Assembly (NCBI GenBank): GCA_947650365.1
Contig: CANTAL010000137.1
Location: 620,001 to 684,000 of the forward strand
Direction: 5' to 3'
Source of the DNA: Chamaelirium japonicum
Taxonomy: Eukaryota; Streptophyta; Magnoliopsida; Liliales; Melanthiaceae
DNA: 64,000 nucleotides
The notes below the pieces were generated by a model, which saw nothing but the letters and a program-made list of their open reading frames with translations, was not told the DNA's origin and did no database searches. A program made the translations under genes and the position numbers. Of this stretch, positions 1 through 64,000 are shown piece by piece; within the stretch, counting starts at the first letter, position 1, and each line of letters opens with the position of its first letter.

Positions 1-756
1 GATCCATTCTAATTCATTCGTACGATCGATTCTAATTCATTAATATGATCCATTCTAATTCATTCGTACGATCCATTCTAATTCATATGCACAAAGGTAT
101 CCATTCTAATCCATTTGTAGGATCCGTTCTAATCCATTCGTACGATCCATTCTAATTCATTCGTACGATCCATTCTAATTCATTCGCTCGAATGTATCCA
201 TTCTAATCCATTCGTACGATCCATTCTAATCCATTCATACGATCCATTCTAATTCATTCGCATGAATGTAACCATTCTAATTCATTCATTTGATCCATTC
301 TAATTCATTCGTACGATCCATTCTAATTCATTCGCACGATCCATTCTAATTCATTCATAGGATCCATTCTAATTCATTCGTACAATCCATTCTAACTCTT
401 TCACACGATCCATTCTAATTCATTCGTATGATCCATTCTAATTCATTCATACAATCCATTCTAATTCATTCGTACGATCCATTCTAATTCACTCATACGA
501 TCCATTCTAATACATTCATACGATCTATTCTAATTCATTTGCACGAATATATCCATTCTAATTCATTCGTACGATCCATTCTAATTCCTTCGTACGATCC
601 ATTCTAATTCATTCGTACGATCTATTCTAATTCATTCGTACGATCCATTCTAATTCATTCGTACGATCCATTCTAATTCCTTCGTACGATCCATTCTAAT
701 TCATTCGTACGATCCATTCTAATTCATTCGTACAATCTATTCTAATTCATTCGTAC
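1..756 (+). repeat. Forward block 1
   Basis: About 32 forward units, including 28-mers near 89, 185, 260 and 540 and the rare variant CATATGCACAAAGGTATCC at 84-102. The block ends in the palindrome CATTCGTACGAATG at about 748-761, where orientation flips. The same block recurs at 5792-6547 and 7113-7866. Confidence 0.93.
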
Positions 757-2810
757 GAATGGATACATTCGTGTGAATGAATTAGAATGGATCGTACGAA
801 TGAGTAAGAATGGATCGTACGAATGAAATAGAATGGATTGCACGAATGAATTAGAATGGATCGTACGAATGAATTAGAATGGATCGTGTGAGAGAATTAG
901 AATGGATTATATGAATGAATTAGAATGGATCATACGAATGAATTAGAATGGATCGTACGAAGGAATTAGAATGGATCGTACGAATGAATTAGAATGGATA
1001 GTACGAATGAATTAGAATAGATCGTACGAATGAATTAGAATGGATCGTACGAAGGTATTAGAATGGATCGTACGAATGAATTAGAATGGATCGTATGAAT
1101 GAATTAGAATGGATACATTCGTGTGAATGAATTAGAATGGATCGTATGAATGAATTAGAATAGATTTTGTGAATGAATTAGAACAGATCGTACGAATGAA
1201 TTAGAATGGATACATTCGTGCGAATGAATTAGAATGGATTGTATGAATGAATTAGAATGGATCCAATGAATGAATTAGAATGGATGGTACGAATGAATTA
1301 GAATGGATATATTCGTGCAAATGAATTAGAATGGATCGTATGAATGTATTAGAATGGATCGTATGAGTGAATTAGAATGGATCGTGCGAATGAATTAGAA
1401 TGGATTGTATGAATGAATTAGAATAGATCGTACGAATGAATTAGAATGGATCATACGAATTAATTAGAATGGATTATACGAATGAATTAGAATGGATCGT
1501 ACAAATGAATTAGAATTAGAATTGATATATTCGTGCGAATGAATTAGAATGGATACATTCGTACGAAAGAATTAGAATAGATCGTATGAATGAATTAGAA
1601 TGGATCCTATGAATGAATTAGAATGGATCGTGCGAATGAATTAGAATGGATCGTACGAATGAATTAGAATGGATACATTCGTGCGAATGAATTAGAATGG
1701 ATCGGACGAATGAATTAGAATGGATCGTACGAATGAATTAGAATGGATCAAATGAATGAATTAGAATGGTTACATTCATGCGAATGAATTAGAATGGATC
1801 GTATGAATGAATTACAATGGATCGTACGAATGAAATAGAATGGATCGTACGAATGAACTAGAATGGATACATTCGTGCGAATGAATTAGAATGGATCGGA
1901 CGAATGAATTAGAATGGATCGTACGAATGAATTAGAATGGATAGTACGAATGAATTAGAATAGCTCATACGAATGAATTAGAATGAATCGTATGAATGAA
2001 TTAGAATGGTTACATTCGTGCGAATGAATTAGAATAGATCGTACGAATGAATTAGAATGGATCGTACGAATAAATTAGAATGGATCGTGAGAATGAATTA
2101 GAATGGATCGTACGAATGAATTAGAATGGATCCACCGAATGAGTTAGAATAGATCATACGAATGAATTAGAATGGATTGTACGAATGAATTAGAATGGAA
2201 TGTGCGAATGAATTAGAATGGATCCTACGAATGAATTAGAATGGATCGTGTGAAAGAATTAGAATGGATTGTATGAATGAATTAGAATGGATATATTCGT
2301 GCAAATGAATTAGAATGGATCGTATGAATGTATTAGAATGGATCGTATGAGTGAATTAGAATGGATCATACGAATGAATTAGAATGGATTGTATGAATGA
2401 ATTAGAATGGATCGTACGAATGAATTAGAATGGATCGTATGAATGAATTAAAATGGATCGTACGAATGAATTAGAATGGATCAAATGAATGAATTAGAAT
2501 GGTTACATTCATCCGAATGAATTAGAATGGTTCGTACGAATGGATTAGAATGGATCGTACGAATAGATTAGATGGATCCTACGAATGGATTAGAATGGAT
2601 ACCTTTGTGCATATGAATTAGAATGGATCGTACGAATGAATTAGAATGGATCATATGAATGAATTAGAATAGATCGTGTGAAAAAATTAGAATGGATTGT
2701 ATGAATGAATTAGAATAGATCGTATGAATGAATCAGAATGGATCGTACGAATGAATTAGAATGGATCGTACGAATGAATTAGAATGGATCGTACGAAAGA
2801 ATTAGAATGA
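757..2810 (-). repeat. Reverse block 1
   Basis: About 2 kb of reverse units with many 28-mers (GGATACATTCGTGCG). It holds the marker variants TTTGTGAATG near 1157, GATCCACCGAATG near 2129 and GGATACCTTTGTGCATATG at 2597-2615. It ends at the junction AGAATGAATCCATTC around 2811. It is copied at 7867-9922. Confidence 0.93.
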
Positions 2811-4300
2811 ATCCATTCTAATTCTTTCACACGATCCATTCTAATTCTTTCGTACGTTCCATTCTAATTCATTAGTACGATCCATGCTAATTCATTCATT
2901 CGATCAATTCTAATTCATTAGCACGATCCATTCTAATTCATTCGCATGATCCATTCTAATTCATTCATAGGATCCATTCTAATTCATTCATACGATCTAT
3001 TCTAATTCTTTCGCACGAATATATCCATTCTAATTCGTTCGTACGATCCATTCTAATTCCTTCGTACGATCCATTCTAATTCATTCGTACAATCTATTCT
3101 ATTTCATTCGTACGATCCATTCTTACTCATTCGTACAATCCATTCTAATTCATTCGTCCGATCCATTCTAATTCATTCGTACGATCCATTCTAATTCATT
3201 CGCATGATTCATTCTAATTCATTCATAGGATCCATTCTAATTCATTCGTACGATCCTTTCTAATTCATTCGTACGATCCATCCTAATTCATTCATACGAT
3301 CTATTCTAATTCATTCATATAATCTATTCTAATTCTTTCACACGATCCATTCTAATTCATTCGTATGATCCATTCTAATTCATTCGTACGATCCATTCTA
3401 TTCTAGTTCATTCGTACGATCCATTCTAATTTATTCGTACGATCCATTCTTATTAATTCTTACTCATTCGTATGATCCATTCTAATTCATTCGGACGAAT
3501 TTATCCATTCTAATTTATTCGTACGATCCATTCTAATTCATTCGTACGATCCATTCTAATTCATTCGTAAGATCCATTCTAATTCATTCGTACGATCCAT
3601 TCTATTTCATTCGTACGATCTATTCTAATTCATTCGTACGATCCATTCTAATTCATTCATATGATCTATTCTAATTCATTCATTCGTACGATCCATTCTA
3701 ATACATTCGTACGATTCATGCTAATTCATTCGCACGATCCATTCTAATTCATTCGTACGATCCATTCTTATTCATTCATACGATCCATTCTAATTCTTTC
3801 ACACGATCCATTCTAATTCATTCGTACGATCCATTCTAATTCATTCGTACGATCTATTCTAATTCAATCGTACGATCCATTCTAATTCATTCGTACGATC
3901 CATTCTAATTCCTTCGTACGATCCATTCTAATTCATTCATACGATCTATTCTAATTCATTCGTACGATCCATTCTAATTCATTCGTACGATCCATTTTAA
4001 TTCATTCGTACAATCCATTCTTACTCATTCGTATGTTCCATTCTAATTCATTCGTACGATCCATTCTAATTCATTCGCACGAATGTATCCATTCCATTCG
4101 TACGATCCATTCATACGATATATTCTAATTCATTCATACAATCCATTCTAATTCTTTCACATGATCCATTCTATTTCATTCGTACGATCCATTCTAATTC
4201 ATTCGTACTATCCATTCTAATTCATTCGTACGATCCATTCTACGATCCATTCTAATTCATTCGTATATTCCATTGTAATTTATTAGCACGATCCATGCTA
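2811..4300 (+). repeat. Forward block 2
   Basis: Forward units. Near the start is the divergent module with TTAGTACGATCCATGC and CGATCAATTC (2868-2915). Near the end are TTAGCACGATCCATGC and the flip at about 4300. Copied at 9923-11520, where the copy is longer by about 107 bp. Confidence 0.92.
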
Positions 4301-4597
4301 ATGAATTAGAATGGATCGTACGAATGAATTAGAATGGATCGTGTGAAAGAATTAGAATGGATTGTATGAATGAATTAGAATGGATCGTATGAATGGATCG
4401 TACGAATGGAATGGATACATTCGTGCGAATGAATTAGAATGGATCGTACGAATGAATTAGAATGGATCATACGAATGAGTAAGAATGGATTTTACGAATG
4501 AATTAGAATGGATCGTACGAATGAATTAGAATGGATCGTACGAATAAATTAGAATGGATACATTCGTCCGAATGAATTAGAATGGATCATACGAATG
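4301..4597 (-). repeat. Reverse block 2
   Basis: About 13 reverse units, bounded on the left by ATGCTAATGAATTAG and on the right by the 10-bp palindrome GAATGCATTC. The same short block with the same two junctions occurs at 11521-11817. The left junction is also found at 42088. Confidence 0.92.
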
Positions 4598-5291
4598 CAT
4601 TCTAATTCCTTCGTACGATCCATTCTAATTCCTTCGTACGATCCATTCTATTTCATTCGTATGATCCATTCTAATTCCTTCGTACGATCCATTCTAATTC
4701 CTTCGTATCCATTCTAATTCACTCATACGATCCATTCTAATCCATTCGTACGATCCATTCTAATTCTTTCGCATGAATGTAACCATTCTAATTCATTCAT
4801 TTGATCCATTCTAATTCATTCGTACGATCCATTGTAATTCATTAATACAATCCATTTAGATTCATTCGCACAAATGTATCCATTCAAATTCATTCGTACG
4901 ATACAGTCTAATTCATTCGCACGAATATATCCAATCTAATTCTTTCGTACGATGCATTCTAATTCATTCGTACGATCCATTCTTATTCATTCGTACGATC
5001 CATTCTAATTCATTCGCACGAATGTATCCATTCTAATTCATTCGTACAATCCATTCTATTTCATTCGTATGATCCATTCTTACTCATTCGTATGATCCAT
5101 TCTAATTCATTCGTATGATCCATTCTAATTCATTCGTACGATCCATTCTAATTCATTCATACGATCCATTCTAATTCATTCGCACGATCCATTCTAATTC
5201 ATTCATACGATCCATTCTAATTCATTCCTACAATCCATTCTAATTCATTCGCCCGATCCATTCTAATTCATTCATACGATCCATTCTATTT

Positions 5292-5313
5292 GAATGGATC
5301 ATGCGATCCATTC
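5292..5313. repeat. Hairpin mini-inversion (loop ATGC)
   Basis: Arms GAATGGATC and GATCCATTC with loop ATGC. A 9- to 13-bp reverse fragment sits inside forward units. Further copies are at 5687-5708, 61251-61272 and 61347-61368. Confidence 0.95.
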
Positions 5314-5686
5314 GAATTCATTCGCACGATCCATTCTAATTCATTTATACGATCCATTCTAATTCATTCATACGATGCATTCTAATTCTTTCACACGATC
5401 CATTGTAATTCATTCGTACGATCCATTCTAATTCATTAATATGATCCATTCTAATTCATTCGTACGATCCATTCTTACTCATTCATATAATCCATTCTAA
5501 TTCATTCGTATGATCCATTCTAATTTATTCGTACGATCCATTCTAATTCATTCGTACGATCAATTCTAATTCATTCGCACGATCCATTCTAATTAATTCA
5601 TACGATCCATTCTAATTCATTCCTACAATCCATTCTAATTCATTCGCCCGATCCATTCTAATTCATTCATACGATCCATTCTATTC

Positions 5687-5708
5687 GAATGGATCATGCG
5701 ATCCATTC
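5687..5708. repeat. Hairpin mini-inversion (loop ATGC)
   Basis: Same 9-bp arms and ATGC loop as at 5292, in the second copy of the 395-bp tandem duplication. Confidence 0.95.
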
Positions 5709-5791
5709 GAATTCATTCGCACGATCCATTCTAATTCATTTATACGATCCATTCTAATTCATTCATACAATGCATTCTAATTCTTTCACAC

Positions 5792-6740
5792 GATCCATTC
5801 TAATTCGTTCGTACAATCCATTCTAATTCATTAATATGATCCATTCTAATTCATTCGTACGATCCATTCTAATTCATATGCACAAAGGTATCCATTCTAA
5901 TCCATTCGTAGGATCCATTCTAATCCATTCGTACGATCCATTCTAATTCATTCGTACGATCCATTCTAATTCATTCGCTCGAATGTATCCATTCTAATCC
6001 ATTCGTACGATCCATTCTAATCCATTCGTACGATCCATTCTAATTCATTCGCATGAATGTAACCATTCTAATTCATTCATTTGATCCATTCTAATTCATT
6101 CATACGATCCATTCTAATTCATTCGCACAATCCATTCTAATTCATTCATAGGATCCATTCTAATTCATTCGTACAATCCATTCTAATTCTTTCACACGAT
6201 CCATTCTAATTCATTCGTACGATCCATTCTAATTCATTCATACAATCCATTCTAATTCATTCGTACGATCCATTCTAATTCACTCAGACGATCCATTCTA
6301 ATACATTCATACGATCCATTCTAATTCATTTGCACGAATATATCCATTCTAATTCATTCGTACGATCCATTCTAATTCCTTCGTATGATCCATTCTAATT
6401 CATTCGTACGATCTATTCTAATTCATTCGTACGATCCATTCTAATTCATTCGTACGATCCATTCTAATTCCTTCGTACGATCCATTCTAATTCATTCGTA
6501 CGATCCATTCTAATTCATTCGTACAATCTATTCTAATTCATTCGTACGAATGGATACATTCGTATGAATGAATTAGAATGGATCGTACGAATGAGTAAGA
6601 ATGGATCGTACGAATGAAATAGAATGGATTGCACGAATGAATTAGAATGGATCGTACGAATGAATTAGAATGGATCGTGTGAAAGAATTAGAATGGATTG
6701 TATGAATGAATTAGAATGGATCGTACGAAGGAATTAGAAT
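5792..6740. repeat. Segmental duplication A, partial third copy
   Basis: Matches 1-950 at an offset of 5791 (checked at 41 and 751), including CATATGCACAAAGGTATCC and the flip at CATTCGTACGAATG. One unit is missing near 6718, and similarity then fades. Confidence 0.88.
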
Positions 6741-6960
6741 GGATCGTGCGAATGAATTAGAATGGATCGTACGAATGAATTAGAATAGATCGTACGAATG
6801 AATTAGAATGGATCGTACGAATGAATTAGAATGGATCGTGTGAAAGAATTAGAATGGATCGTACGAATGAATTAGAATGGATCGTGCGAATGAATTAGAA
6901 TGGATCGTACGAATGAATTAGAATGGATCGTGCTAATGAATTAGAATTGATCGAACGAAT
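6548..6960 (-). repeat. Reverse block 3
   Basis: About 18 reverse units. The first 190 bp copy 757-950, with one unit missing. The block ends with GTGCTAATGAATTAG, GATCGAACGAATTC and a flip at about 6960. Confidence 0.92.
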
Positions 6961-7866
6961 TCATTGTAATTCATTCAAACAATCCATTCTAATTCTTTCA
7001 CACGAACCATTCTAATTCATTCGTACGTTCCATTCTAATTCATTAGCACGATCCATGCTAATTCATTCTAATCCATTCTAATTCATTTGTATCCATTCTA
7101 ATCCATTCGCACGATCCATTCTAATTCATTCGTACGATCCATTCTAATTCATTAATATGATCCATTCTAATTCATTCGTACGATCCATTCTAATTCATAT
7201 GCACAAAGGTATCCATTCTAATCCATTCGTAGGATCCGTTCTAATCCATTCGTACGATCCATTCTAATTCATTCGTACGATCCATTCTAATTCATTCGCT
7301 CGAATGTATCCATTCTAATCCATTCGTATGATCCATTCTAATCCATTCATACGATCCATTCTAATTCATTCGCATGAATGTAACCATTCTAATTCATTCA
7401 TTTGATCCATTCTAATTCATTCGTACGATCCATTCTAATTCATTCGCACGATCCATTCTAATTCATTCATAGGATCCATTCTAATTCATTCGTACAATCC
7501 ATTCTAACTCTTTCACACGATCCATTCTAATTCATTCGTATGATCCATTCTAATTCATTCATACAATCCATTCTAATTCATTCGTACGATCCATTCTAAT
7601 TCACTCATACGATCCATTCTAATACATTCATACGATCTATTCTAATTCATTTGCACGAATATATCCATTCTAATTCATTCGTACGATCCATTCTAATTCC
7701 TTCGTACGATCCATTCTAATTCATTTGTACGATCTATTCTAATTCATTCGTACGATCCATTCTAATTCATTCGTACGATCCATTCTAATTCCTTCGTACG
7801 ATCCATTCTAATTCATTCGTACGATCCATTCTAATTCATTCGTACAATCTATTCTAATTCATTCGT
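6961..7866 (+). repeat. Forward block 4
   Basis: The first 150 bp are forward units with several unusual spacings (TTCATTCTAATCCATTC near 7051). From 7113 the block copies 1-756, including CATATGCACAAAGGTATCC at 7196. It ends in CATTCGTACGAATG. Confidence 0.92.
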
Positions 7867-9922
7867 ACGAATGGATACATTCGTGTGAATGAATTAGAAT
7901 GGATCGTACGAATGAGTAAGAATGGATCGTACGAATGAAATAGAATGGATTGCACGAATGAATTAGAATGGATCGTACAAATGAATTAGAATGGATCGTG
8001 TGAGAGAATTAGAATGGATTGTATGAATGAATTAGAATGGATCATACGAATGAATTAGAATGGATCGTACGAACGAATTAGAATGGATCGTACGAATGAA
8101 TTAGAATGGATAGTACGAATGAATTAGAATAGATCGTACGAATGAATTAGAATGGATCGTACGAAGGAATTAGAATGGATCGTACGAATGAATTAGAATG
8201 GATCGTATGAATGAATTAGAATGGATACATTCGTGTGAATGAATTAGAATGGATCGTATGAATGAATTAGAATAGATTTTGTGAATGAATTAGAACTGAT
8301 CGTACGAATGAATTAGAATGGATACATTCGTGCGAATGAATTAGAATGGATTGTATGAATGAATTAGAATGGATCCAATGAATGAATTAGAATGGATCGT
8401 ACGAATGAATTAGAATGGATATATTCGTGCAAATGAATTAGAATGGATCGTATGAATGTATTAGAATGGATCGTATGAGTGAATTAGAATGGATCGTGCG
8501 AATGAATTAGAATGGATTGTATGAATGAATTAGAATGGATCGTACGAATGAATTAGAATGGATCATACGAATTAATTAGAATGGATTATACGAATGAATT
8601 AGAATGGATCGTACAAATGAATTTGAATTAGAATGGATATATTCGTGCGAATGAATTAGAATGGATACATTCGTACGAAAGAATTAGAATAGATCGTATG
8701 AATGAATTAGAATGGATCCTATGAATGAATTAGAATGGATCGTGCGAATGAATTAGAATGGATCGTACGAATGAATTAGAATGGATACATTCGTGCGAAT
8801 GAATTAGAATGGATCGGACGAATGAATTAGAATGGATCGTACGAATGAATTAGAATGGATCAAATGAATGAATTAGAATGGTTACATTCATGCGAATGAA
8901 TTAGAATGGATCGTATGAATGAATTAGAATGGATCGTACGAATGAAATAGAATGGATCGTACGAATGAACTAGAATGGATACATTCGTGCGAATGAATTA
9001 GAATGGATCGGACGAATGAATTAGAATGGATCGTACGAATGAATTAGAATAGATCGTACGAATGAATTAGAATAGCTCATACGAATGAATTAGAATGAAT
9101 CGTATGAATGAATTAGAATGGTTACATTCGTGCGAATGAATTAGAATAGATCGTACGAATGAATTAGAATGGATCGTACGAATAAATTAGAATGGATCGT
9201 GAGAATGAATTAGAATGGATCGTACGAATGAATTAGAATGGATCCACCGAATGAGTTAGAATAGATCATACGAATGAATTAGAATGGATTGTACGAATGA
9301 ATTAGAATGGAATGTGCGAATGAATTAGAATGGATCCTACGAATGAATTAGAATGGATCGTGTGAAAGAATTAGAATGGATTGTATGAATGAATTAGAAT
9401 GGATATATTCGTGCAAATGAATTAGAATGGATCGTATGAATGTATTAGAATGGATCGTATGAGTGAATTAGAATGGATCATACGAATGAATTAGAATGGA
9501 TTGTATGAATGAATTAGAATGGATTGTACGAATGAATTAGAATGGATCGTATGAATGAATTAGAATGGATCGTACGAATGAATTAGAATGGATCAAATGA
9601 ATGAATTAGAATGGTTACATTCATCCGAATGAATTAGAATGGTTCGTACGAATGGATTAGAATGGATCGTACGAATAGATTAGAATGGATCCGACGAATG
9701 GATTAGAATGGATACCTTTGTGCATATGAATTAGAATGGATCGTACGAATGAATTAGAATGGATCATATGAATGAATTAGAATAGATCGTGTGAAAAAAT
9801 TAGAATGGATTGTATGAATGAATTAGAATAGATCGTATGAATGAATCAGAATGGATCGTACGAATGAATTAGAATGGATCGTACGAATGAATTAGAATGG
9901 ATCGTACGAAAGAATTAGAATG
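7867..9922 (-). repeat. Reverse block 4, copy of 757-2810
   Basis: Marker variants fall in the same order as in reverse block 1 at a constant offset of 7112 bp: TTTGTGAATG, GATCCACCGAATG near 9241, and GGATACCTTTGTGCATATG at 9710. The right-hand junction AGAATGAATCCATTC is also shared. Confidence 0.93.
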
Positions 9923-11520
9923 AATCCATTCTAATTCTTTCACACGATCCATTCTAATTCTTTCGTACGTTCCATTCTAATTCATTAGTACGATCCATGC
10001 TAATTCATTCGTTCGATCAATTCTAATTCATTAGCACGATCCATTCTAATTCATTCACATGATCCATTCTAATTCATTCATAGGATCCATTCTAATTCTT
10101 TCATACGATCTATTCTAATTCTTTCGCACGAATATATCCATTCTAATTCGTTCGTACGATCCATTCTAATTCCTTCGTACGATCCATTCTAATTCATTCG
10201 TACGATCTATTCTATTTCATTCGTACGATCCATTCTTACTCATTCGTACAATCCATTCTAATTCATTCGTCCGATCCATTCTAATTCATTCGCACGAATG
10301 TATCCATTCTAATTCATTCGTTCGATCAATTCTAATTCATTAGCACGATCCATTCTAATTCATTCGTACGATCCATTCTAATTCATTCGCACGATTCATT
10401 CTAATTCATTCATAGGATCCATTCTAATTCATTCGTACGATCCTTTCTAATTCATTCGTACGATCCATTCTAATTCATTCATACGATCTATTCTAATTCA
10501 TTCATACAATCCATTCTAATTCTTTCACACGATCCATTCTAATTCATTCGTATGATCCATTCTAATTCATTCGTACGATCCATTCTATTCTAGTTCATTC
10601 GTACGATCCATGCTAATTTATTCGTACGATCCATTCTTATTAATTCTTACTCATTCGTATGATCCATTCTAATTCATTCGGACGAATTTATCCATTCTAA
10701 TTTATTCGTACGATCCATTCTAATTCATTCGTACGATCCATTCTAATTCATTCGTAAGATCCATTCTAATTCATTCGTACGATCCATTCTATTTCATTCG
10801 TACGATCTATTCTAATTCATTCGTACGATCCATTCTAATTCATTCATATGATCTATTCTAATTCATTCATTCGTACGATCCATTCTAATACATTCGTACG
10901 ATTCATGCTAATTCATTCGCACGATCCATTCTAATTCATTCGTACGATCCATTCTTATTCATTCATACGATCCATTCTAATTCTTTCACACGATCCATTC
11001 TAATTCATTCGTACGATCCATTCTAATTCATTCGTACGATCTATTCTAATTCAATCGTACGATCCATTCTAATTCATTCGTACGATCCATTCTAATTCCT
11101 TCGTACGATCCATTCTAATTCATTCATACGATCTATTCTAATTCATTCGTACGATCCATTCTAATTCATTCGTACGATCCATTTTAATTCATTCGTACAA
11201 TCCATTCTTACTCATTCGTATGATCCATTCTAATTCATTCGTACGATCCATTCTAATTCATTCGCACGAATGTATCCATTCCATTCGTACGATCCATTCA
11301 TACGATATATTCTAATTCATTCATACAATCCATTCTAATTCTTTCACACGATCCATTCTATTTCATTCGTACGATCCATTCTAATTCATACGTACGATCC
11401 ATTCTAATTCATTCGTACGATCCATTCTAATTCATTCTAATTCATTCGTACGATCCATTCTACGATCCATTCTAATTCATTCGTATATTCCACTGTAATT
11501 TATTAGCACGATCCATGCTA
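9923..11520 (+). repeat. Forward block 5, copy of 2811-4300
   Basis: Copies forward block 2, with an extra stretch at about 10285-10380 (a 28-mer and 23-mers, with repeated TTAGCACGATCC) and an extra 33 bp near 11430. These raise the offset from 7113 to 7220. Confidence 0.92.
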
Positions 11521-11817
11521 ATGAATTAGAATGGATCGTACGAATGAATTAGAATGGATCGTGTGAAAGAATTAGAATGGATTGTATGAATGAATTAGAA
11601 TGGATCGTATGAATGGATCGTACGAATGGAATGGATACATTCGTGCGAATGAATTAGAATGGATCGTACGAATGAATTAGAATGGATCATACGAATGAGT
11701 AAGAATGGATTTTACGAATGAATTAGAATGGATCGTACGAATGAATTAGAATGGATCGTACGAATAAATTAGAAAGGATACATTCGTCCGAATGAATTAG
11801 AATGGATCATACGAATG
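11521..11817 (-). repeat. Reverse block 5, copy of 4301-4597
   Basis: Same length, same internal variants (GAATGGATCGTACGAATGG near 11611) and same GAATGCATTC right junction as reverse block 2. Confidence 0.92.
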
Positions 11818-13361
11818 CATTCTAATTCCTTCGTACGATCCATTCTAATTCCTTCGTAGGATCCATTCTATTTCATTCGTATGATCCATTCTAATTCCTT
11901 CGTACGATCCATTCTAATTCCTTCGTATCCATTCTAATTCACTCATACGATCCATTCTAATCCATTCGTACGATCCATTCTAATTCTTTTGCATGAATGT
12001 AACCATTCTAATTCATTCATTTGATCCATTCTAATTCATTCGTACGATCCATTGTAATTCATTAATACAATCCATTTAGATTCATTCGCACAAATGTATC
12101 CATTCAAATTCATTCGTACGATCCAGTCTAATTCATTCGCACGAATATATCCATTCTAATTCTTTCGTACGATGCATTCTAATTCATTCGTACGATCCAT
12201 TCTAATTCATTCGTACGATCCATTCTAATTCATTCGCACGAATGTATCCATTCTAATTCATTCGTACAATCCATTCTATTTCATTCGTATGATCCATTCT
12301 TACTCATTCGTATGATCCATTCGTATAATTCATTCATACGATCCATTCTAATCCATTCATACGATCCATTCTAATTCATTCATACAATCCATTCTAATTC
12401 TTTCGCACAAATGTATCCATTCTAATTCATTCGTATGATCCACCCTAATTCCTTCGTATGATCCATTCTAATTCATTCGCACGAATGTATCCATTCTAAT
12501 TCATTCGTACGATCCATTTGAATTCATTCATACGATCCATTCTAATTCCTAATACATTCTAATTCATTCGTATGATCAATTCGAATTCATTCGTACGATG
12601 CATTCTAATTCATTCGTACGATCCATTTTATTTCATTCGAACGATCCATTCTTACTCATTCGTACTATCCATTCTAATTCATTCGCACAAATGTATCCAT
12701 TCTAATTCATTCGTACGATCCATTCTAATTCATTCGCATGATCCATTCTAATTCATTCATACGATCCATTCTAATTCATTCGTACGATCCATTCTTACAC
12801 ATTCGTACAATCCATTCTAATTCATTTGCACGAATGTATCCATTCTAATTCATTCGTACGATCCATTCGAATTTATTCATACGATCCATTCTAATTCATT
12901 CATACGATCCATTCTAATTCATTCGCACGAATGTATCCATTCTAATTCATTTGTACGATCCATTCTAATTCATTCGCACAATCTATTCTAATTCATTCGT
13001 ACGATCTATTCTAATTCATTCACACGATCCATTCTAATTCATTTGTATGATCCATTCTAATTCATTCATACAATCCATTCTAATTCTTTTGGACGAATGT
13101 ATCCATTCTAATTCATTCGTACGATCCATTCTAATTCCTTCGTAAGATCCATTCTAATTCCTTTGTACGATCCATTCTAATTCATTCCCATGAATGTATC
13201 CATTCTAATTCATACGTACGATCCATTCTAATTCATTCATACGATCCAATCTAATTCATTTATATGATCCATTCTAATTCATTCGCACGAATGAATCCAT
13301 TCTAATTCATTTGTACGATCCATTCTAATTCATTCGCACAATCCATTCTAATTCCTTCGTA
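11818..13361 (+). repeat. Forward block 6
   Basis: Forward units that follow 4598-5100 closely up to about 12320 and then diverge. 28-mers are frequent between 12400 and 13320. It ends in TTCGTACGAA. Confidence 0.92.
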
Positions 13362-13902
13362 CGAATGAATTAGAATGGATCGTATGAATCAATTAGAATG
13401 GATCGTGCGAATGAATTAGAATAAATTCGCACGAATGAGTAAGAATGGATCGTACGAATGAAATAGAATGGATCGTATGAATGAATTAGAATGGATCGTG
13501 CGAATGAATTAGAATGGATCGTACGAATGAATTAGAATGGATCGTACGAATGAATTAGAATAGCTCGTACGAATGAATTAGAATAGATCGTGCGAACGAA
13601 CTAGGGTGGATCGTACGAATGGATAAGAATAGATCGTGTGAATGAATTAGAATGGATCGTACGAATGACTTAGAATGGATCGTCCGAAAGAATTAGAATG
13701 GATTGTATGATTGAATTAGAATGGATCGTATGAATGAATTAGAATGGATAGTGCGAATAAATTAGAATGGATCGTACGAATGAACTAGAATGGATACATT
13801 CATGCGAATGATTTAGAATGGATCATACGAATGAGTAAGAATGGATCGTACGAATGAAATAGAATAGATACATTCGTGCGAATGAATTAGAATGGATCGT
13901 GC
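13362..13902 (-). repeat. Reverse block 6
   Basis: About 23 reverse units, among them a diverged one with CTAGGGTGGATCG near 13600. It ends GATCGTGC and then changes to forward TAATTCATTC at about 13902. Confidence 0.9.
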
Positions 13903-14906
13903 TAATTCATTCATACGATCCATTATAATTCATTCGTAGGATCCATTCTAATTCATTCGCACAATCTATTATAATTCATTCGTACGATCCATTCTAATTC
14001 ATTCGCACGATCCATTCTAATTCATTTGCACGATCATTTCTAATTCATTCATACAATCCATTCTAATTCTTTCGCATGAATATATCCATTCTAATTCATT
14101 CGTACGATCCACCATAATTCCTTCACATGATCCATTCTAATTCATTCGTACGATCCATTCGAATTCATTAGCATGATCCATTCTAATTCATTCATACGAT
14201 CCATTCTAATTCATTCGTACGATCCATTCTAATTCATTCGCATGATCCATTCTAATTCATTCGCACAATCTATTCTAATTCATTCGCATGATCCATTCTA
14301 ATTCATTCATATGATCCATTCTAATTCATCCATACAATCCATTCTAAATCATACGATCCCTTCTAATTCATTCACACGATCCATTCTAATTCATTCATAC
14401 GATCCATTCTAAATCATTCGTACGATCCACTCTAATTCATTCGCACAATCCATTCTAATTCATTCATACGATCCATTCTAATTCATTCATACAATCCATT
14501 CTAATTCTTTCGCACGAATGTATCCATTCTAATTCATTCGTACGATCCACCCTAATTCCTTCGTATGATCCATTCTAATTCATTCGCATGAATGTATCCA
14601 TTCTAATTCATTCGTACGATCCATTCGAATTCATTCATACGATCCATTCTAGTTCATTTATACGATCCATTCTAATTCATTCGTATGATCCATTCTAATT
14701 CAATCGCACGAATGTATCCATTCTAATTCATTCGTACGAATCACCCTAATTCATTCGTATGATCCATTTTAATTCATTCGCATGATCCATTCTAATTCAT
14801 TCGTACGATCAATTCTAATTCATTCGCACGATCCATTCTAATTCATTCATACGATCCATTCTAATTCATTCATACAATCCATTCTAATTCTTTCGCACGA
14901 ATGTAT
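13903..14906 (+). repeat. Forward block 7
   Basis: Forward units rich in GCACGATCC and CATACGATCC forms. Two sub-repeats contain ACCCTAATTCCTTCGTATG (about 14548 and, in a variant form, 14730). It ends in a 28-mer start GAATGTATC, then CGTACGAATTAG. Confidence 0.9.
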
Positions 14907-15396
14907 CGTACGAATTAGAATGGATACATTCGTGCGAATGAATTAGAATGGATCGTACGAATGAGTAAGAATGGATCGTACGAATGAAATAGAATGGATC
15001 GTACGAATGAATTAGAATGGATCGTGCTAATTAATTAGTATGGATCATACGAATGAATTAGAAAAGATTGTGCAAATGAATTAGAATGGATCGTACGAAT
15101 GCATTAGAATGCATACATTCGTGCAAATGAATTAGAATGGATCGTATGAATGAATTAGAATGGATCGTATGAATGAATTAGAATGGATCGTATGAACGAA
15201 TTAGTATAGATCGTACGAATGAGTAAGAATGGATCGTACGAAGGAATTAGAATGGATCGTACGAATGAATTAGAATGGATCGTATGAATGAATTAGAATG
15301 GATCGTGCGAATGAATTAGAATTGATCGTACGAATGAATTAGAATGGATCGTATGAATAAATTAGAATGGATCGTGCGAATGAATTAGAATGGATA
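14907..15396 (-). repeat. Reverse block 7
   Basis: About 21 reverse units. The right junction is GGATACTCTAATTC at about 15393-15406, where a reverse 28-mer is cut short and joined inside a forward unit. Confidence 0.9.
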
Positions 15397-16771
15397 CTCT
15401 AATTCATTCATACGATCCATTCTAATTCATTCGCACGATCCATTCTAATTCATTCATACGATCCATTCTAATTCATTCGTACGATCTAATTCATTCGTAC
15501 GATCCATTCTAATTCATTTGCATGATTGTATCCATTCTAATTCATTCGTACGATCTATTCTAATTCATTCTTGCGATCCTTTCTAATTCATTCACATGAA
15601 TGTATCCATTTTAATTCAATCGTACAATCCATTCTAATTCTTTCACACAATCCATTCTAATTCATTCGTACGATCCATTCCAATTCATTCATACGATCCA
15701 TTCTAATTCATTCGCATGAATGTATCCATTCTAATTCATTCGTACGATCCATTCTAATTCATTCGTACAATCCATTCTATTCATTCGTATGATCCATTCT
15801 AATTCATTCGTAAGAATGTACCCATTCTAATTGATTCGTATGAACCATTCTAATTTATTCGCACGATCCATTCTAATTCATTCGTACGATCCATTCTAAT
15901 TTATTCTCACAAATGTATCCATTGTAATTCATTCGTACGATCCATTCTAATTTATTCGCAGGAATCATTTTAATTCATTCATACGATCCATTCAAATTCA
16001 TTCGTGCGATCGATTCTAATTCACTTGAACGATCCATTCTAATTCATTCGCAAGAATGTATCCATTCTAAATCATTCGTACGATCCCTTCTAATTTATTC
16101 ACACGATCCATTCAAATTCATTCATACGATCCATTCTAATACATTCGTGCGATCCATTCTAATCCATTCATACGATCTATTATAATTCATTCACGCGATC
16201 CATTCTAATTCATTCGCACGAATATATCCATTCTAATTCATTCCTACGATCCATTCTAACTCATTCGCACGATCAATTCTAATTCATTCGTACGATCCTT
16301 TCTAATTCATTCGTACGATCCATTCTAATTCATTTGCATGAATGTATCAATTCTAATTCATTCGTACGATCCATTCTAATTTATTCGCACGATACATTCT
16401 AATCGTACGATCTATTCTAATTCATTCGTACGATCCATTCTAATTCTTTTGTACAACCCATTCTAATTTATTAAAATGATCAATTCAAATTCATTCGCAA
16501 GAATGTATCCATTCTAATTCATTCGTCCGATCCATACTAATTCATTCGTACGATCCATTCTAATTCATTCGTACGATCCATTCTAATTCATTCGCACGAA
16601 TGTATCCATTCTAATTCATTCTTACAATCCATTCTAATTTATTCGCACGATCCGTTCTAATTCATTCGTACGATCCATTCTAATTCATTCGTACGATCCA
16701 TTCTAATTCATTCGCACGAATGTATCCATTCTAATTCATTCATACGAATGTATCCATTCTAATTCATTCGT
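15397..16771 (+). repeat. Forward block 8
   Basis: Forward units more diverged than in most blocks (TTATTCGCAGG, TTCACTTGAACG, ACAACCCATTC). Near the end are two exact neighbouring copies of a stretch of about 120 bp (around 16500-16740). It closes in the perfect palindrome at 16744-16799. Confidence 0.9.
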
Positions 16772-16799
16772 GCGAATGAATTAGAATGGATACATTCGT
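16744..16799. repeat. Near-perfect palindrome at a flip
   Basis: Two perfect 27-bp arms (16744-16770 and 16773-16799) around the 2-bp spacer TG. Each arm is almost a full 28-mer, so a 28-bp unit is mirrored onto itself. Confidence 0.95.
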
Positions 16800-19306
16800 G
16801 CAAATGAATTAGAATGGATACATTCGTCCGAATGAATTAGAATGGAACATACGAACGAATTAGAATGGATCGTACGAATGAATTAGAATGGATACATTCG
16901 TGCGAAGGAATTAGAATGGATCGTATGAATGAATTATAATGGAGTACGAATGTATCCATTCTAATTCATTCGTACGATATATTCTAATTCATTCGTACGA
17001 TCCATTCTAATTCATTAATATGATCCATTCTAATTCATTCGCACGATCTATTCTAGTTCATTCGTACGATCCATTCTAATTCATTTGTACGAATGAATCT
17101 GAATGAATTCAAATGGATCGTACGAATGAATTAGAATGGATACATTCGTGCGAATGTATTAGAATGGATCGTACGAATAAATTATAATGGATCGTATGAG
17201 TGAATTAGAATGGATACATTCGTACAAATGAATTAGAATGGATCGTACGAATGAATTAGAATAGATCGTACAAATTAATTAGAATGGATCATGCGAATGG
17301 ATTAGAATAGATCATACGAATGGATTAGAATGGGTCGTACGAATGAATTAGAATGGATCGTAAGAATGAATTAGAATGGATATATTCATGCGAATGAATT
17401 AGAATGGATCATACGAATAAATTAGAATGGATCGTATGAATGAATTAGAATGGATACATTCTGGCAAATGAATTAGAATGGATCGTACAAATGAATTAGA
17501 ATGGATACATTCGTACGAATGAATTAGAATGAATCGTACGGCCCATTCTAATTCATTCGTACAATCCATTCTAATTCATTCATACGATCCATTCTAATTC
17601 ATTCGTAGATCATACGAATGAATTAGAATCGATCGTACAAATGAATTAGAATGGATCGTATGAATGAATTAGAATGGATACATTCGTGCTAATCAATTAG
17701 AATAGATTGTATGAATGAATTAGAATAGATATATTCGTACGATCCATTCAAATTCATTCATACGATCCATTCAAATTCATTCGCACGAATGTATCAATCC
17801 ATTCTAATACATTCGTAAAAATGAATTATAATGGATCATACGAATGAATTAGAATGGATTGTACGAATAAATTAAAATGGATCGTATAATAGAACGAATC
17901 GTACGAATGAATTAGAATGGATCGTATGAATGAATTAGACTGGATCGTACGAATGAATTAGAATGGATATATTCGTGCGAATGAATTAGAATGGATCGTA
18001 CGAATGAATTAGAATGGACCGTCTGAATGAATTAGAATGGATACATTAGTGCAAATGAATTAGGGTGGATGGTACGAATGAATTAGAATGGATACATTCG
18101 TGCGAATGAAATAGAATGGCTTAGTACGAATGAATTAGAAAGGACCGTTCGAATGAATTAGAATGGATACATTCGTACGAATAAATTAGAATGGATACAT
18201 TCGTATGATCCATTCTAATTCATTCGTACGATCCATTCAAATTCATTCGTACGAATGTAACGATCCATTCTAATACATTCGTACAAATAAATTATATTGG
18301 ATCATACGAATGAATTAGAATGGATTGTACGAATAAATTAGAATGGATCGTATAATAGAATGGATCGTACGAATGAATTAGAATGGATACATTCGTGCGA
18401 ATGAATTAGAATGGATCGTATGAATGAAATAGACTGGATCGTATAAATGAATTGGAATGGATATATTCGTGCGAATGAATTAGAATGGATCGTATGAATG
18501 AATTAGAATGGATACTTTCGTGCGAATGAATTAGAATGGATCATATGAATGAATTAGAATAGATACATTCGTGCGAATGAATTAGAATGGATCGTACGAA
18601 TGACTTAGAATGGACCGTTCGAAAGAATTAGAATGGATACATTCATACGAATAAATTAGAATGGATACATTCGTATGATCCATTCTAATTTATTCGTACG
18701 ATCCATTCTAATTCATTCGTACGATCCATTCTAATTCATTCGCACGAATGTATCCATTCTAATTCATTAGTACGATCCGTTCTAATTCATTCGTATGATC
18801 CATTCTAATTCATTCGTACGATCTATTATAATTCATTCATACGATCCTTTCTAATTCATTCGTACGATCCATTCTAATTCATTCGTACGATCCATTCTAA
18901 TACATTCGTATGATCCATTCTAATTCATTCGTACGATCCATTCTAATTCATTCGTACGATCCGTGCGAATGAATTAGAATGGATCATACAAATTAATTAG
19001 AATGGACACATTCGTGCGAATGACTTAGAATGGATCGTATGAATGAATTAGAATGGATCGTACGAATGAATTAGAATGGATACATTCGTGCGAATGAATT
19101 AGAATGGATCGTATGAATGAATTAGAATGGATCGTACGAACGAATTAGAACGGATACATTCGTGCGAATGAATTTGAATGGATCGTACGAATGAACAAGA
19201 ATGGATCGTACGAATGAATTAGAATGGATACAATCATGCGAATGAATTAGAATGGATCGTACGAATGAATTAGAATGGATCGTATGAATGAATAAGAATG
19301 GATACA
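16772..19306. repeat. Rapid orientation-switching zone (12 short blocks)
   Basis: Orientation alternates in short blocks: - 16772-16943, + 16944-17089, - 17090-17540, + 17541-17607, - 17608-17734, + 17735-17817, - 17818-18202, + 18203-18284, - 18285-18674, + 18675-18962, - 18963-19306. Boundaries are good to about 10 bp. The blocks at 17735-18202 and 18203-18670 are a tandem duplication, so two of the inversions were copied together. Units here are more diverged, for example TATAATAGAACG at about 17885. Confidence 0.88.
17735..18670. repeat. Tandem duplication of about 466 bp containing an inversion junction
   Basis: The diverged string GTATAATAGAA occurs at 17884 and 18350, 466 bp apart. 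Both copies run: forward units, ACATTCGTA junction, reverse units, a GTATAATAGAA break, then reverse 28-mers. The second copy carries several substitutions relative to the first. Confidence 0.8.
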
Positions 19307-22300: not shown

Positions 22301-22704
22301 ATTCATTCGTACGATCCATTCTAATTCCTTCGTACGATCAATTCTAATTCATTCGTAAGACCCATTCTAATTCATTCGCGCAATCTATTCTAATTCATTC
22401 GTACGATCCATTCTAATTCATTCGTACGATCCATTCTAATTCATTCATACAATCCATTCTAATTTATTCGCACGAATGTATCCATTCTAATTCATTCATA
22501 CGATCCATTCTAATTCATTAATATGATCCATTCTAATTCATTCGTACGATCCATTCTAATTCATTCGTAGGATCCATTGTAATTTATTCGTACAATCTAT
22601 TCTATTTCATTCATACGATCCATCGTTATTCATTCGTACGATCCATTCTAATTCATTCATATGATCCATTCTAATTCATTCGTACGATCCATTCTAATTC
22701 ATTC
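19307..22704 (+). repeat. Forward block 9 (long)
   Basis: About 3.4 kb of forward units, with one reverse unit at about 22128-22150 (ATGAATTAGAATGGATCG). Positions 19850-20170 resemble 58811-59110. Positions 20420-20610 hold the TTAGCACGATCCATGC module shared with 53.6, 60.4 and 62.3 kb. Positions 20660-20990 are tandemly repeated at about 21340-21670. It ends ATTCATATTCGTGC at 22704. Confidence 0.9.
20660..21670 (+). repeat. Tandem duplication of about 680 bp
   Basis: The rare variant CGATCCAGTCTAAT occurs at 20901 and 21583, 682 bp apart. Each copy is preceded by the same series: two GTATGATCC units, ATTAATTCG, a CATACAATCC unit and a 28-mer. Confidence 0.75.
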
Positions 22705-45886: not shown

Positions 45887-47033
45887 TACGAATGAATTAG
45901 AATGAATTAGAATGGATCGTACGAATGAATTAGAATGGATCGTACGAATGAATTAGAATGGATCGGACGAATGAATTAGAATGGATACATTCGTGCGAAT
46001 GAATTAGAATGGATCGGACGATTGAATTAGAATGGATCGTACGAATGACTTAGAATGGATCATATGAATTCATTAGAATGGTTCCATTCATGCGAATGAA
46101 TTAGAATGGATCGTACGAATGGATTAGAATGGATCGTACGAATGGATTAGAATGGATACATTCGAGCGAATGAATTAGAATGGATCATACGAATGAATTA
46201 GAATGGATCGTACGAATGGATTAGAATGGATCCTACGAATGGATTAGAATGGATACCTTTGTGCATATGAATTAGAATGGATCGTATAAATGAATTAGAA
46301 TGGATCGTAGAATGGATCGTACGAATGAATGAGAATGAATTAGAATGGATCGTATGAATGAATTAGAATAGATCATAGGAATGAATTAGAATGGATCGTG
46401 CAAATGAATTAGAATGGATACATTTATACGAATGAATTAGAATGGATCGTACGAATGAATTAGAATGGATCGTACGAATGAATTAGAATAGATCATACGA
46501 ATGAATTAGAATGGATCATACGAATGAGTAAGAATGGATCGTACGAATGAAATAGAATGGATTGTACGAATGAATTAGAATGGATCGTACGAATGAATTA
46601 GAATGGATCATGTGAAAGAATTAGAATGGATTGTATGAATGAATTAGAATGGATCATATGAATGAATTAGAATGGATCATGCGAATGAATTTGAATGGAT
46701 CGTACGAATGAATTAGAATGGATCGTACGAATGAATTATAATGGATACATTCGTGCGAATGAATTAGAATGGATACATTCGTGCGAAAGAATTAGAATAG
46801 ATCGTATGAATGAATTAGAATGGATCCTATGAATGAATTAGAATGGATCGTGCGAATGAATTAGAATGGATCGTACGAATGAATTAGAATGGAGCGTGCT
46901 AATGAATTAGAATTGATCGAACGAATTAATTAGCAGGGATCGTGCTAATGAATTAGAATGGAACGTACGAATGAATTAGAATAGATCGTGTGAAAGAATT
47001 AGAATGGATTGTATGAAAGAATTAGAATGAATT
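45887..47033 (-). repeat. Reverse block, 45.9 kb, copy of 31477-32827
   Basis: Same variant order as its partner, with GGATACCTTTGTGCATATG at about 46250, but without the 37-bp sub-array. It carries the GTGCTAATG / GATCGAACG module at about 46890. It ends AATTCGTACGATCC. Confidence 0.91.
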
Positions 47034-47460
47034 CGTACGATCCATTCGAATTCAATTCGCACGATCCATTCTAATTCATTGATACGATCCATTCTAATTC
47101 ATTCATACAATCCATTCTAATTCTTTCACCCGATCCATTCTAATTCATTCGTAGGATCCAATCTAATTCATTTGTACAATCTATTCTATTTCATTCATAC
47201 GATCCATTCTTACTCATTCGTATGATCCATTCTAATTCATTCGGACGAATGTATCCATTCTAATTTATTCGAACGATCCATTCTAATTCATTCGTACGAT
47301 CCATTCTAATTCATTCGTACGATCCATTCTTACTCATTCGTATGATCCATTCTAATTCATTCGTACGATCCATTCTAATTCATTCGTATGATCCATTCTA
47401 ATTCATTCGCACAATCTATTCTAATTCATTCGTACGATCCATTCTAATTCATTCGTACGA
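47034..47460 (+). repeat. Forward block, 47.0 kb, copy of 32828-33254
   Basis: About 18 forward units with the same cassette and 28-mer as its partner. It ends at the centre of the 58-bp perfect palindrome 47432-47489. Confidence 0.91.
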
Positions 47461-47489
47461 TCGTACGAATGAATTAGAATGGATCGTAC
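47432..47489. repeat. 58-bp perfect palindrome at a flip
   Basis: Arms 47432-47460 and 47461-47489 meet in CGATCG with no spacer; the arms are longer than one repeat unit. The partner site at 33254 in copy 1 of duplication B has one mismatch near the centre. Confidence 0.95.
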
Positions 47490-61668: not shown

Positions 61669-61710
61669 CATTCTAATTCATTCGTACGATCGTACGAATG
61701 AATTAGAATG
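61669..61710. repeat. 42-bp perfect palindrome at a flip
   Basis: Arms 61669-61689 and 61690-61710 meet in CGATCG, the same centre as at 31476 and 47460 although this site lies outside duplication B. Confidence 0.95.
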
Positions 61711-62235: not shown

Positions 62236-63370
62236 AATTCATTCTAATTCATTCATACAATCCATTCTAATTCTTTCACACGATCCATTCTAATTCATTC
62301 GTACGTTCCATTCTAATTCATTAGCACGAACCATCCTAATTCATTCGTTCGATCAATTCTAATTCATTAGCACGATCCATTCTAATTCATTCGTACGATC
62401 CATTCTAATTCATTCGCACGATCCATTCTAATTCATTCATAGGATCCATTCTAATTCATTCATATGATCTATTCTAATTCCTTCGCACGAATGTATCCGT
62501 TCTAATTCATTCGCACGAATATATCCATTCAAATTCATTCGTACGATCCATTCTAATTCATTCGTACGATCCATTCAAATTTATTCATACGATCTATTCT
62601 AATTCATTCATACAATCCATTCTAATTCTTTCACACGATCCATTCTAATTCATTCGTACGATCCATTCTAATTCATTCGCACAATCTATTCTAATTCATT
62701 CGTACGATCCATTCTAATTCTTTCACAAGATCCATTCTAATTCATTCGTACGATCCATTCTAATTCATTTTTACAATCCATTCTATTTCATTCGTACGAT
62801 TCATTCTTACTCATTCGTATGATCCATTCTAATTCATTCGCACGAATGTATCCATTCTAATTCATTCGTACGATCCATTCTAATTCATTCGTACGATCCA
62901 TTCTAATTCATTCAGACGATCCATTCTAATTCATTCATACAATCCATTCTAATTCATTCGCACGATCCATTCGAATTCATTCGCATGATCCATTCTAATT
63001 CATTCATACGATCCATTCTAATTCATTCGCACAATCCATTCGAATTCTTTCGCACGATCCATTCTAATTCATTCGCACGAATGTATCCATTCTAATTCAT
63101 TCGTATGATCCATTCTAATTCATTCGTACAATCCATTCTTATTCCTTCGTACGATCCATTCTAATTCATTAATTAATTCTTACGATCCATTCTAATTCAT
63201 TCGCACAATCTATTCTAATTCATTCATACGATCCATTCTAATTCATTCGTACGATCCATTCTAATTCATTCATACGATCCAGTCTAATTCATTCGCACGA
63301 ATATATCTATTCTAATTCATTCGTACGATCCATTCTAATTCATTCGTACAATCCATCCTATTTCATTCGT
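62236..63370 (+). repeat. Forward block, 62.2 kb
   Basis: About 48 forward units, one disrupted (TTCATTAATTAATTCTTACG near 63164). It ends in the 18-bp palindrome TTCATTCGTACGAATGAA. Confidence 0.91.
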
Positions 63371-63783
63371 ACGAATGAATTAGAATGGATATATTCGTGC
63401 AAATGAATTAGAATGGATCATACGAATGAGTAAGAATGCATCGTATGAATGAAATAGAATGGATCGTATGAAGGAATTAGAATGGATCATACGAATGAAT
63501 TAGAATGGATCGTATGAACGAATTAGAATGGATCGTGTGAAAGAATTAGAATGGATTGAATTAGAATAGATCGTACGAATGAGTAAGAATGGATCGTACG
63601 AATGAAATAGAATGGATTATACGAATGAATTAGAATGGATCGTACGAATGAATTAGAATGGATTGTGTGAAAGAATTAGAATGGATTGTATGAATGAATT
63701 AGAATGGATCCTATGAATGAATTAGAATGGATCGTACGAATGTAATAGAATGGATCGTACGTATAAATTAGAATGGATACATT
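63371..63783 (-). repeat. Reverse block, 63.4 kb
   Basis: About 17 reverse units, one deleted in the middle (GGATTGAATTAGAATAG near 63553). It ends GGATACATTCCAATTC. Confidence 0.9.
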
Positions 63784-64000
63784 CCAATTCATTCATACAA
63801 TCTATTCTAATTCATTCGTATGATCCATTCTAATTCATTCGTACAATCCATTCTATTTCATTCGTACGATCCATTCTTACTCATTCGTATGATCCATTCT
63901 AATTCATTCGCACGAATGTATCCATTCTAATTCATTCGTACGATCCATTCTAATTCATTCATACAATCCATTCTAATTCTTTCACACGATCTATTCTAAT
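63784..64000 (+). repeat. Forward block at right edge
   Basis: Nine forward units with the CTATTTC-CTTACTC cassette. The array runs off the window end in mid-unit, so the satellite is longer than 64 kb; at position 1 it likewise starts inside the array. Confidence 0.92.

Follow-up and report, generated by a model that had tools for sequence, protein, structure and literature searches.

Most strand switches examined in a Chio satellite array of Chionographis japonica derive by copying from a limited number of older joints

The 64-kb stretch of DNA analysed here (hereafter the window) is an array of Chio1/Chio2, the CENH3-binding satellite of the Chionographis japonica holocentromere, and its many strand switches are not ~70 independent inversions. 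Most of those examined reproduce older joints, limited in number, and they were mostly copied together with larger blocks. The satellite and its alternating orientation are already known; what is added here are joint lineages showing that the switches were mostly copied rather than newly made. The main features are listed in Table 1.

Table 1. Features of the window, with positions counted from its first base
Feature	Positions	Strand	Details
Chio1/Chio2 satellite array	1..64000		23-bp unit GAATGAATTAGAATGGATCGTAC and 28-bp variant; 71 blocks separated by 70 orientation changes
Higher-order copy carrying its own strand switches	1..4067	+	second copy 7113-11208, 96.0%, shift 7112
27.75-kb tandem duplication, portion inside the window	1..26112	+	99.4%, shift 26,693; partner copy C149:591,701-619,432
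Switch, joint lineage 1	741..780		42 of 296 joints, 10 places
Switch, joint lineage 4	2790..2830		14 of 296 joints; C149, C7, C8
298-bp block between joint lineages 7 and 3	4300..4597	+	one of 10 sampled blocks of like kind and length class
Switch, joint lineage 0	6940..6980		commonest lineage, 51 of 296 joints
GATC-centred palindromic switch, lineage 6	33233..33273		imperfect form at this site
Block with two switches, one at its edge	46498..47462		inverted copy at 53103-54066, 95.9%

The window belongs to an 841-kb unplaced contig of an assembly made from PacBio HiFi reads with hifiasm. A two-orientation Viterbi model with the unit GAATGAATTAGAATGGATCGTAC reads all 64 kb at 92.1% identity; a variant that permits non-repeat sequence again gives 70 switches and excludes 74 bases in seven short stretches. 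Spacings of the anchor TTAGAATGG are 23 bp in 1,054 cases and 28 bp in 226, so that units are mostly 23 bp. The satellite is split 48:52 between the strands, and the 64-kb window holds neither an open reading frame of at least 150 aa nor an Rfam match at the gathering threshold.

Identification of the repeat as Chio1/Chio2 follows from agreement of the assembly with the published C. japonica assembly and from the 23/28-bp unit lengths; the letters of the Chio1 consensus are published as a figure. The species, named Chamaelirium japonicum in NCBI, is a holocentric monocot (Liliales, Melanthiaceae). Organelle genes, a standard-code COX1 and a matK reading frame, also indicate a plant; a first placement of matK in Asparagales, pointing to Anoectochilus, was rejected. 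Sequences C1-C12 total 1,090,673,439 bases, with C8 at 81,106,678, and the published scaffolds number 12 (1,090.73 Mb, N50 81.11 Mb, 2n = 24; PMC10264360). The whole assembly has 1,518,659,071 bases in 3,253 contigs; the published primary assembly before scaffolding had 1,526,137,861 in 3,786 (PMC10264360). Chio monomers are 23 bp (dominant) and 28 bp (minor), a 5-bp length difference (PMC10264360), which is the pattern of the window spacings. The 9-mer TTCGTACGA, present in the 23-bp Chio monomer and common to Chama (PMC12722358), also occurs in the unit of the window. CENH3 binding and the centromere role of Chio are taken from published work: CENH3 ChIP enrichment on Chio is 11-fold, each chromosome has 7-11 evenly spaced megabase-sized Chio units, and CENH3 chromatin sits on ~100 megabase-scale arrays that jointly act as line-like holocentromeres (PMC10264360). 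A literature search for the letters of the unit gave a single hit, a purine-sensing paper judged from its listing to be unrelated.

Frequent strand switching of the satellite in the assembly is confirmed. The first-pass annotation had recognized a satellite with a 23-bp unit and had given its flip density, both correctly, and its count of about 68 flips agrees with the 70 of the model, which become 68 without one doubtful block (36634-36657; 24 bp, 83% identity to the unit). The 69 internal blocks have a median length of 547 bp and a mean of 912 bp, within a range of 24 to 4,214 bp, and the next shortest above 24 bp is 67 bp; the annotated range of 70 bp to 4.2 kb was a fair description. To control the orientation calls, pieces of real repeat were joined once in each of 600 simulations, and every simulation gave exactly one call. 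On bases 1-10,000, TRF breaks the array at four of the eight flips and runs across the other four, which flank two short blocks. An inverted-repeat search of the window listed no inverted pair of at least 1,500 bp.

Switching is not peculiar to the window. Across 24 records, the window included, 298 flips were observed in 268,966 bp of satellite. Arrays fetched from elsewhere in this genome show 1.1 switches per kb on average, and the density is similar across the fetched arrays, 0.6-1.8 per kb in every record holding more than 5 kb of satellite. Exact two-unit matches genome-wide number 65,354 forward and 65,796 reverse. Loci outside C149 were chosen for matching positions 1-600 of the window, which biases order sharing near that segment upward; the genome-wide exact counts are free of this bias. 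The published mixture of forward and reverse arrays is found in the window, in the other records and in the genome-wide counts. Mixed, ‘frequently alternating’ Chio orientation is in print (PMC10264360, PMC12722358), in two reports that come from one group and assembly and are not independent checks. Among the matches listed, C1, C2 and C3 each carry the satellite at numerous distinct sites, and of 20 chromosome samples of 200 bp taken at random, one was satellite. Its abundance is estimated at ~193 Mb (95% interval 163-220). This is ~13% of the assembly, lower than the published 16.11% of the genome (PMC10264360).

The evidence for copying comes from the joints themselves. Clustering of 296 joints (two of the 298 lay too close to a record end) gives 41 lineages, or 60 or 70 under stricter cut-offs; the number varies with the cut-off, a loose one may merge independent joints in some lineages, and 5% to 50% of pairs of background non-junction 120-mers reach a score of 85. 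Lineages present on at least two chromosomes or contigs comprise 252 of the 296 joints. The 70 joints of the window fall into 28 lineages, and 54 of them belong to lineages also seen outside its contig. The annotation had considered inversion as prominent as tandem duplication, a view that these numbers contradict. Recurrence extends to flanking variants and to the order of joints, and independent events would not give joint types that recur with shared flanks. Larger blocks carry the joints along: two C5 loci 82 Mb apart (84.85 Mb and 3.32 Mb) have 8,331 bp in common at 97.7% with 12 joints inside, and C8 and the window have 8,420 bp in common at 95.7% with six. Some copies of exact joints lie at a fixed local spacing, for example 39,912 bp twice on C9. 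One 35-mer form of lineage 0 has 13,010 exact copies in the genome.

This recurrence also bears on whether the flips could stem from assembly or sequencing. Chimeric joins or missed-adapter fold-back reads could create false inverted copies, satellite assembly is error-prone, and seven of the 15 readable contig starts examined (two reading N were excluded) lie in satellite, a sign that the assembly tends to break there. Such an artefact is nevertheless very improbable: fold-back reads would leave arms that are nearly identical, a state seen at few joints; in most of the forms counted, one and the same joint is present in hundreds to thousands of copies; flip density is similar between records; and the reads are HiFi.

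How the joints arose is a separate matter. According to the first-pass annotation, the palindromic pieces of the unit (GATC, CGTACG and AATT) would start fold-back or template switching almost anywhere, giving frequent independent inversions. Perfect palindromes do exist: of the six axes on which a perfect snap-back is possible, four were counted as exact 44-mers, with 3,221 for GATC, 635 and 401 for GTAC and 26 for AATT, numbers that are very uneven and depend also on how often flanking units keep the consensus. At the joints, perfect palindrome length is not enriched over random joins (p = 0.30), and the score for imperfect palindromes shows a weak excess (p = 0.045). When the arms must adjoin the joint, 7 of 156 joints exceed the 95th percentile of mismatched-arm controls (7.8 expected) and 2 of 156 the 99th (1.6 expected), and none of 38 joints tested from the window exceeds the controls. 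This test is weighted most, since the arms of a true fold-back have to begin at the joint itself and since its control set is the largest (9,298 pairs). A global arm score places 0 of 187 joints above the 99th percentile. Local scores without adjacency show an excess above the control 99th percentile, at 7 of 121 joints with 400-bp arms (~1.2 expected) and 3 of 47 with 800-bp arms (~0.5 expected). Joints whose blocks were shorter than the arm length were excluded from these arm tests.

Preserved arms occur at some joints. In lineage 34 (L021:8689) the arms agree at 98.9% over 272 bp beside the joint and at 91.6% over 1,067 bp; at L056:3635 they agree at 94.8% over 1,219 bp with a 46-bp offset, and at L022:4330 at 95.6% over 409 bp with a 19-bp offset. 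Fold-back at lineage 34 is convincing, and the looser arm tests show an excess, but the annotated fold-back almost anywhere found for the most part no support. As a positive control, simulated fold-backs with 5% divergence per arm score 375-459, and the control 99th percentile is 419; owing to this overlap, power is weak and fold-backs of some age can escape the test. In general the joints do not derive from recent fold-back, though the test is weak for old events. Since joint types recur with shared flanks, frequent independent inversion started by the unit is unlikely to explain the array. Microhomology at the joints averages 1.56 bp over the 41 lineages versus 0.67 bp in 600 simulated joins (one-sided p = 0.0017). 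Block-phase tests give a mild excess for inversion in place (24 versus 16.5 expected) and none for an inserted inverted segment (24 versus 23.2 expected); no single act of inversion was caught in these tests of the sampled blocks.

Comparison with known systems places these joints in context. The published Chio1/Chio2 (PMC10264360) likewise combines 12 chromosomes, 23-/28-bp monomers, high abundance, higher-order repeats, a forward/reverse mixture and dyad symmetries in the unit. The object itself does not differ, and joint lineages and a per-kb flip rate do not appear in the available part of that paper. Chama of Chamaelirium luteum, from the sister genus, is also centromeric and shares a 9-bp motif with the Chio monomer, but it has a 60-bp unit, consistently oriented arrays, long higher-order structure and macro-monocentromeres (PMC12722358). 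TmSat1/TmSat2 of the beetle Tribolium madens resemble Chio in forming megabase satellite regions whose orientation changes at a small number of highly conserved inversion sites, present in thousands of copies. Their units are composed of a ~110-bp element, their several-kb subarrays are mostly paired and TmSat1 has two predominant inversion types (PMC13081366), whereas in Chio the unit is 23 bp long, mean block length is 0.9 kb and joint lineages number in the dozens. Switching inside arrays was not found in the available part of a study of satellite arrays in nanopore reads (PMC7004042).

In Tribolium, macro-dyad symmetry aiding centromere chromatin has been proposed, and selection could likewise keep conserved inversion sites in Chio. 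Joint sequences are conserved across Chio chromosomes, the arrays bind CENH3 (PMC10264360), and the Tribolium sites, 98-99% conserved, lie within putative (peri)centromeric arrays (PMC13081366). Of the macro-dyad traits, Chio has the conserved joints; arm similarity is not above controls when adjacency is required, a test weak for old fold-backs. Selection of this kind is improbable, as copying alone accounts for the conservation, block lengths are widely scattered (CV 0.92), joint arms are not symmetric as a rule, and the Chama arrays of the sister species are consistently oriented yet centromeric (PMC12722358).

The preferred reading, held with high confidence, is that rare microhomology joins in the Chio satellite were followed by block amplification and exchange between centromere units. 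The mixed orientation would go back to a limited number of inversion joints, probably formed when array stretches of opposite orientation underwent microhomology-mediated end joining or template switching. Amplification of kilobase blocks would then have multiplied these joints, and exchange between arrays of the same and of different chromosomes may have carried them further, by gene conversion, circular DNA or unequal exchange.

The joint lineages correct the impression of a satellite that inverts anew every kilobase. We lean, with some reserve, towards regarding the joints as heritable tracers, a limited number of ancestral composite blocks having moved with their joints among the ~100 centromere units of all chromosomes. 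Joints common to distant units mark transfer more sharply than the unit sequence by itself. The authors of the C. japonica genome themselves raise the question of how a holocentromere is made by the spread of centromere satellites along chromosomes. If the tracer reading is true, assembly-wide joint lineages would reconstruct the spread of the holocentromere, with transfer within chromosomes separated from transfer between them.

The window, C149:620,001-684,000, is satellite from end to end. A two-orientation Viterbi reading matches the 23-bp unit GAATGAATTAGAATGGATCGTAC at 92.1% identity and switches orientation 70 times (flips) in 64 kb, the two orientations taking up 48.4% and 51.6% of bases; a variant permitting non-repeat sequence again gives 70 changes and leaves 74 bases outside the model. 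The strand-switching satellite described in the first-pass annotation is thus borne out. In a control for the joint calls, each of 600 simulated joins gave exactly one joint (600/600). TRF, run on the first 10 kb, breaks the array at four of eight flips and runs through two short inverted blocks. The 69 internal blocks between flips span 24-4,214 bp (median 547, mean 912, CV 0.92), a spread close to that expected for random breakpoints. Units are spaced by 23 bp (n = 1,054) or 28 bp (n = 226), and the 28-bp variant may be viewed as the 23-bp unit with part of it micro-inverted.

The assembly comprises 1.519 Gb in 3,253 contigs. Sizes of C1-C12 go from 137 to 70 Mb and C13 has 3.9 Mb; this drop defines 12 chromosome scaffolds, totalling 1,090,673,439 bases, with C8 at 81,106,678. 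For Chionographis japonica (2n = 24), Kuo et al. 2023 (PMC10264360) describe an assembly from HiFi and Hi-C data with 12 scaffolds, 1,090.73 Mb and an N50 of 81.11 Mb, and a most-abundant repeat with monomers of 23 bp (Chio1) and 28 bp (Chio2), enriched 11-fold in CENH3 ChIP. Chio2 is described as carrying one dyad symmetry more than Chio1 (PMC10264360). The 9-mer TTCGTACGA, common to the units of Chio and of Chama, the 60-bp satellite of Chamaelirium luteum (PMC12722358), is present in the 23-bp unit of the window. From assembly figures, monomer lengths and the shared 9-mer, rather than from consensus letters, we assign the window to the Chio satellite and therefore to centromere sequence. 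A COX1 in the standard code and a matK reading frame mark the genome as that of a plant. Among the matches listed, 59 full-length COX1 matches of equal score lie on separate small unplaced contigs (e.g. C514, C537, C551 and C573); many redundant organelle contigs are therefore kept in the assembly.

Flips are frequent throughout the sampled satellite. In 24 records (the window plus the 20 loci L009-L028 and also L054-L056), 268,966 bp of satellite carry 298 flips, or 1.1 per kb; the rate lies between 0.6 and 1.8 per kb in every record having >5 kb of satellite, and one record, L025, has none of it. Thirteen loci (L009-L014, L020-L024, L027 and L028) were picked for their match to positions 1-600 of the window, the others by position on C149, the window's contig. 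Across the genome, exact matches to a 49-mer of the unit number 65,354 in forward and 65,796 in reverse orientation. Calibrated on the fetched satellite, these counts give ~193 Mb (bootstrap interval 163-220), ~13% of the assembly and somewhat under the published 16.11% (PMC10264360). Satellite was found in one of 20 random chromosome spots of 200 bp, few yet compatible with the estimate, and at seven of 15 readable contig starts, on contigs picked by number rather than randomly.

Most of these flips are not separate events. Alignment of 120 bp around each of 296 joints, on both strands, groups them into 41 lineages of alike joints at a looser cut-off and 60 or 70 at stricter ones (6, 15 and 24 singletons, respectively). 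At the looser cut-off, the three biggest lineages hold 51, 42 and 18 joints, 252 of the 296 joints belong to lineages shared by two or more chromosomes or contigs, and the window's 70 flips reduce to 28 lineages, with 54 flips in lineages also found outside C149. Private flanking variants travel with recurring joints, and joint order is common to different loci. Two C5 sites 82 Mb apart share a block of 8,331 bp (97.7%, 12 joints), C8 and the window one of 8,420 bp (95.7%, six joints), and C58 and C2 one of 7,790 bp (96.2%, nine joints, inverted); choosing loci by their match to window 1-600 favours sharing, but the common runs extend far past 600 bp. Half of the window's flips (35/70) lie in segments of at least 800 bp repeated at ≥95% within 114 kb, including a 27.75-kb tandem duplication (99.4%) and a higher-order copy at a 7,112-bp shift. 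A non-palindromic 35-bp joint has 6,491 + 6,519 exact genome copies.

Coordinates of individual features in the window and in comparison loci (L, fetched loci; C, contigs)
Feature	Locus position	Contig position	Description
Satellite border	L012:7048	C2:19,178,047	Abrupt, to unrelated sequence; GC-rich tandem array (unit ~43 bp, eye count) starts ~550 bp past border
Satellite border	L026:8170	C149:308,170	Abrupt, to unrelated sequence
Satellite border	L056:6491	C149:756,491	Abrupt, to unrelated sequence
Long asymmetric palindrome	L056:3635	C149:753,635	Arms 1,219 bp at 94.8%; 46-bp offset at joint
Recurring flip pair	L054	C149:831,256-841,255	Three 188-bp inverted blocks, each between joint lineages 2 and 8; satellite with the pair extends to contig end
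28-bp variant	Window 758-790 (example)		Throughout window; internal 14-bp inverted repeats, CATTCGTGCGAATG-like

That the flips are artefacts of missed-adapter or chimeric fold-back reads is very improbable: such reads would give near-identical arms at every flip, whereas few joints show them. Moreover, of the five joint forms counted genome-wide, four have between 401 and 13,010 copies each and the other has 26, among the matches listed on chromosomes and, in one full list, also on loose contigs.

Genuine fold-back at GATC, CGTACG or AATT, suggested in the first-pass annotation, is improbable as the general source of the flips, though some joints would stem from it. Lineage 34 is a convincing case, the palindrome of L056 is among the few clear fold-back-like places, and a few joints still carry long arms offset by 19-46 bp, the trace expected of a hairpin. 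A looser local arm test gives an excess over the 99th percentile (7/121 with 400-bp arms, 3/47 with 800-bp arms). However, when arms must match within 60 bp of the joint, comparison with 9,298 mismatched arm pairs puts 7/156 joints above the 95th percentile and 2/156 above the 99th, about chance, with none of 38 window joints exceeding the controls; by global arm score, 0/187 joints pass the 99th percentile. Set against 4,000 random joins, perfect palindromes at joints show no gain in length (p = 0.30), and imperfect ones show a weak one (p = 0.045). Counts of perfect snap-back 44-mers genome-wide are very uneven (GATC -+ 3,221, GTAC +- 635, GTAC -+ 401 and AATT +- 26); they cover four of six possible axes and also vary with consensus retention in flanking units. 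Old fold-backs may escape detection, because simulated arms diverged by 5% each score 375-459, straddling the 99th percentile of 419.

Microhomology at joints averages 1.56 bp (41 lineages) against 0.67 bp in 600 simulations (p = 0.0017), an excess that grows under stricter clustering. In block-phase tests, in-place inversion is mildly over-represented, and insertion of an inverted segment is not.

Both the satellite and its mixture of forward and reverse arrays (PMC10264360) are already known, the follow-up of the Kuo group, citing the 2023 work, calling the orientation of Chio arrays frequently alternating (PMC12722358). In the passages of PMC10264360 and PMC12722358 covered here, no analysis of joint lineages was found, and 'junction' has no occurrences in either main text. 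Chama arrays of the sister species Chamaelirium luteum keep one consistent orientation (PMC12722358). The closest parallel found is Tribolium madens, whose megabase satellites have inversion sites of a few highly conserved types, verified by the study's authors on raw HiFi reads, and a mostly symmetric pairwise arrangement (PMC13081366); in Chio, by contrast, the unit is tiny, blocks are short and the joint repertoire is larger. To explain the spread of Chio, Kuo et al. (PMC10264360) put forward interlocus gene conversion, inversions having a single breakpoint inside an array, circular DNA or microhomology-mediated gene conversion. As the best reading of the joints, we infer that oppositely oriented stretches of this centromere satellite would have been joined illegitimately with the help of microhomology, some by fold-back, and that block amplification and exchange would then have multiplied the joints.
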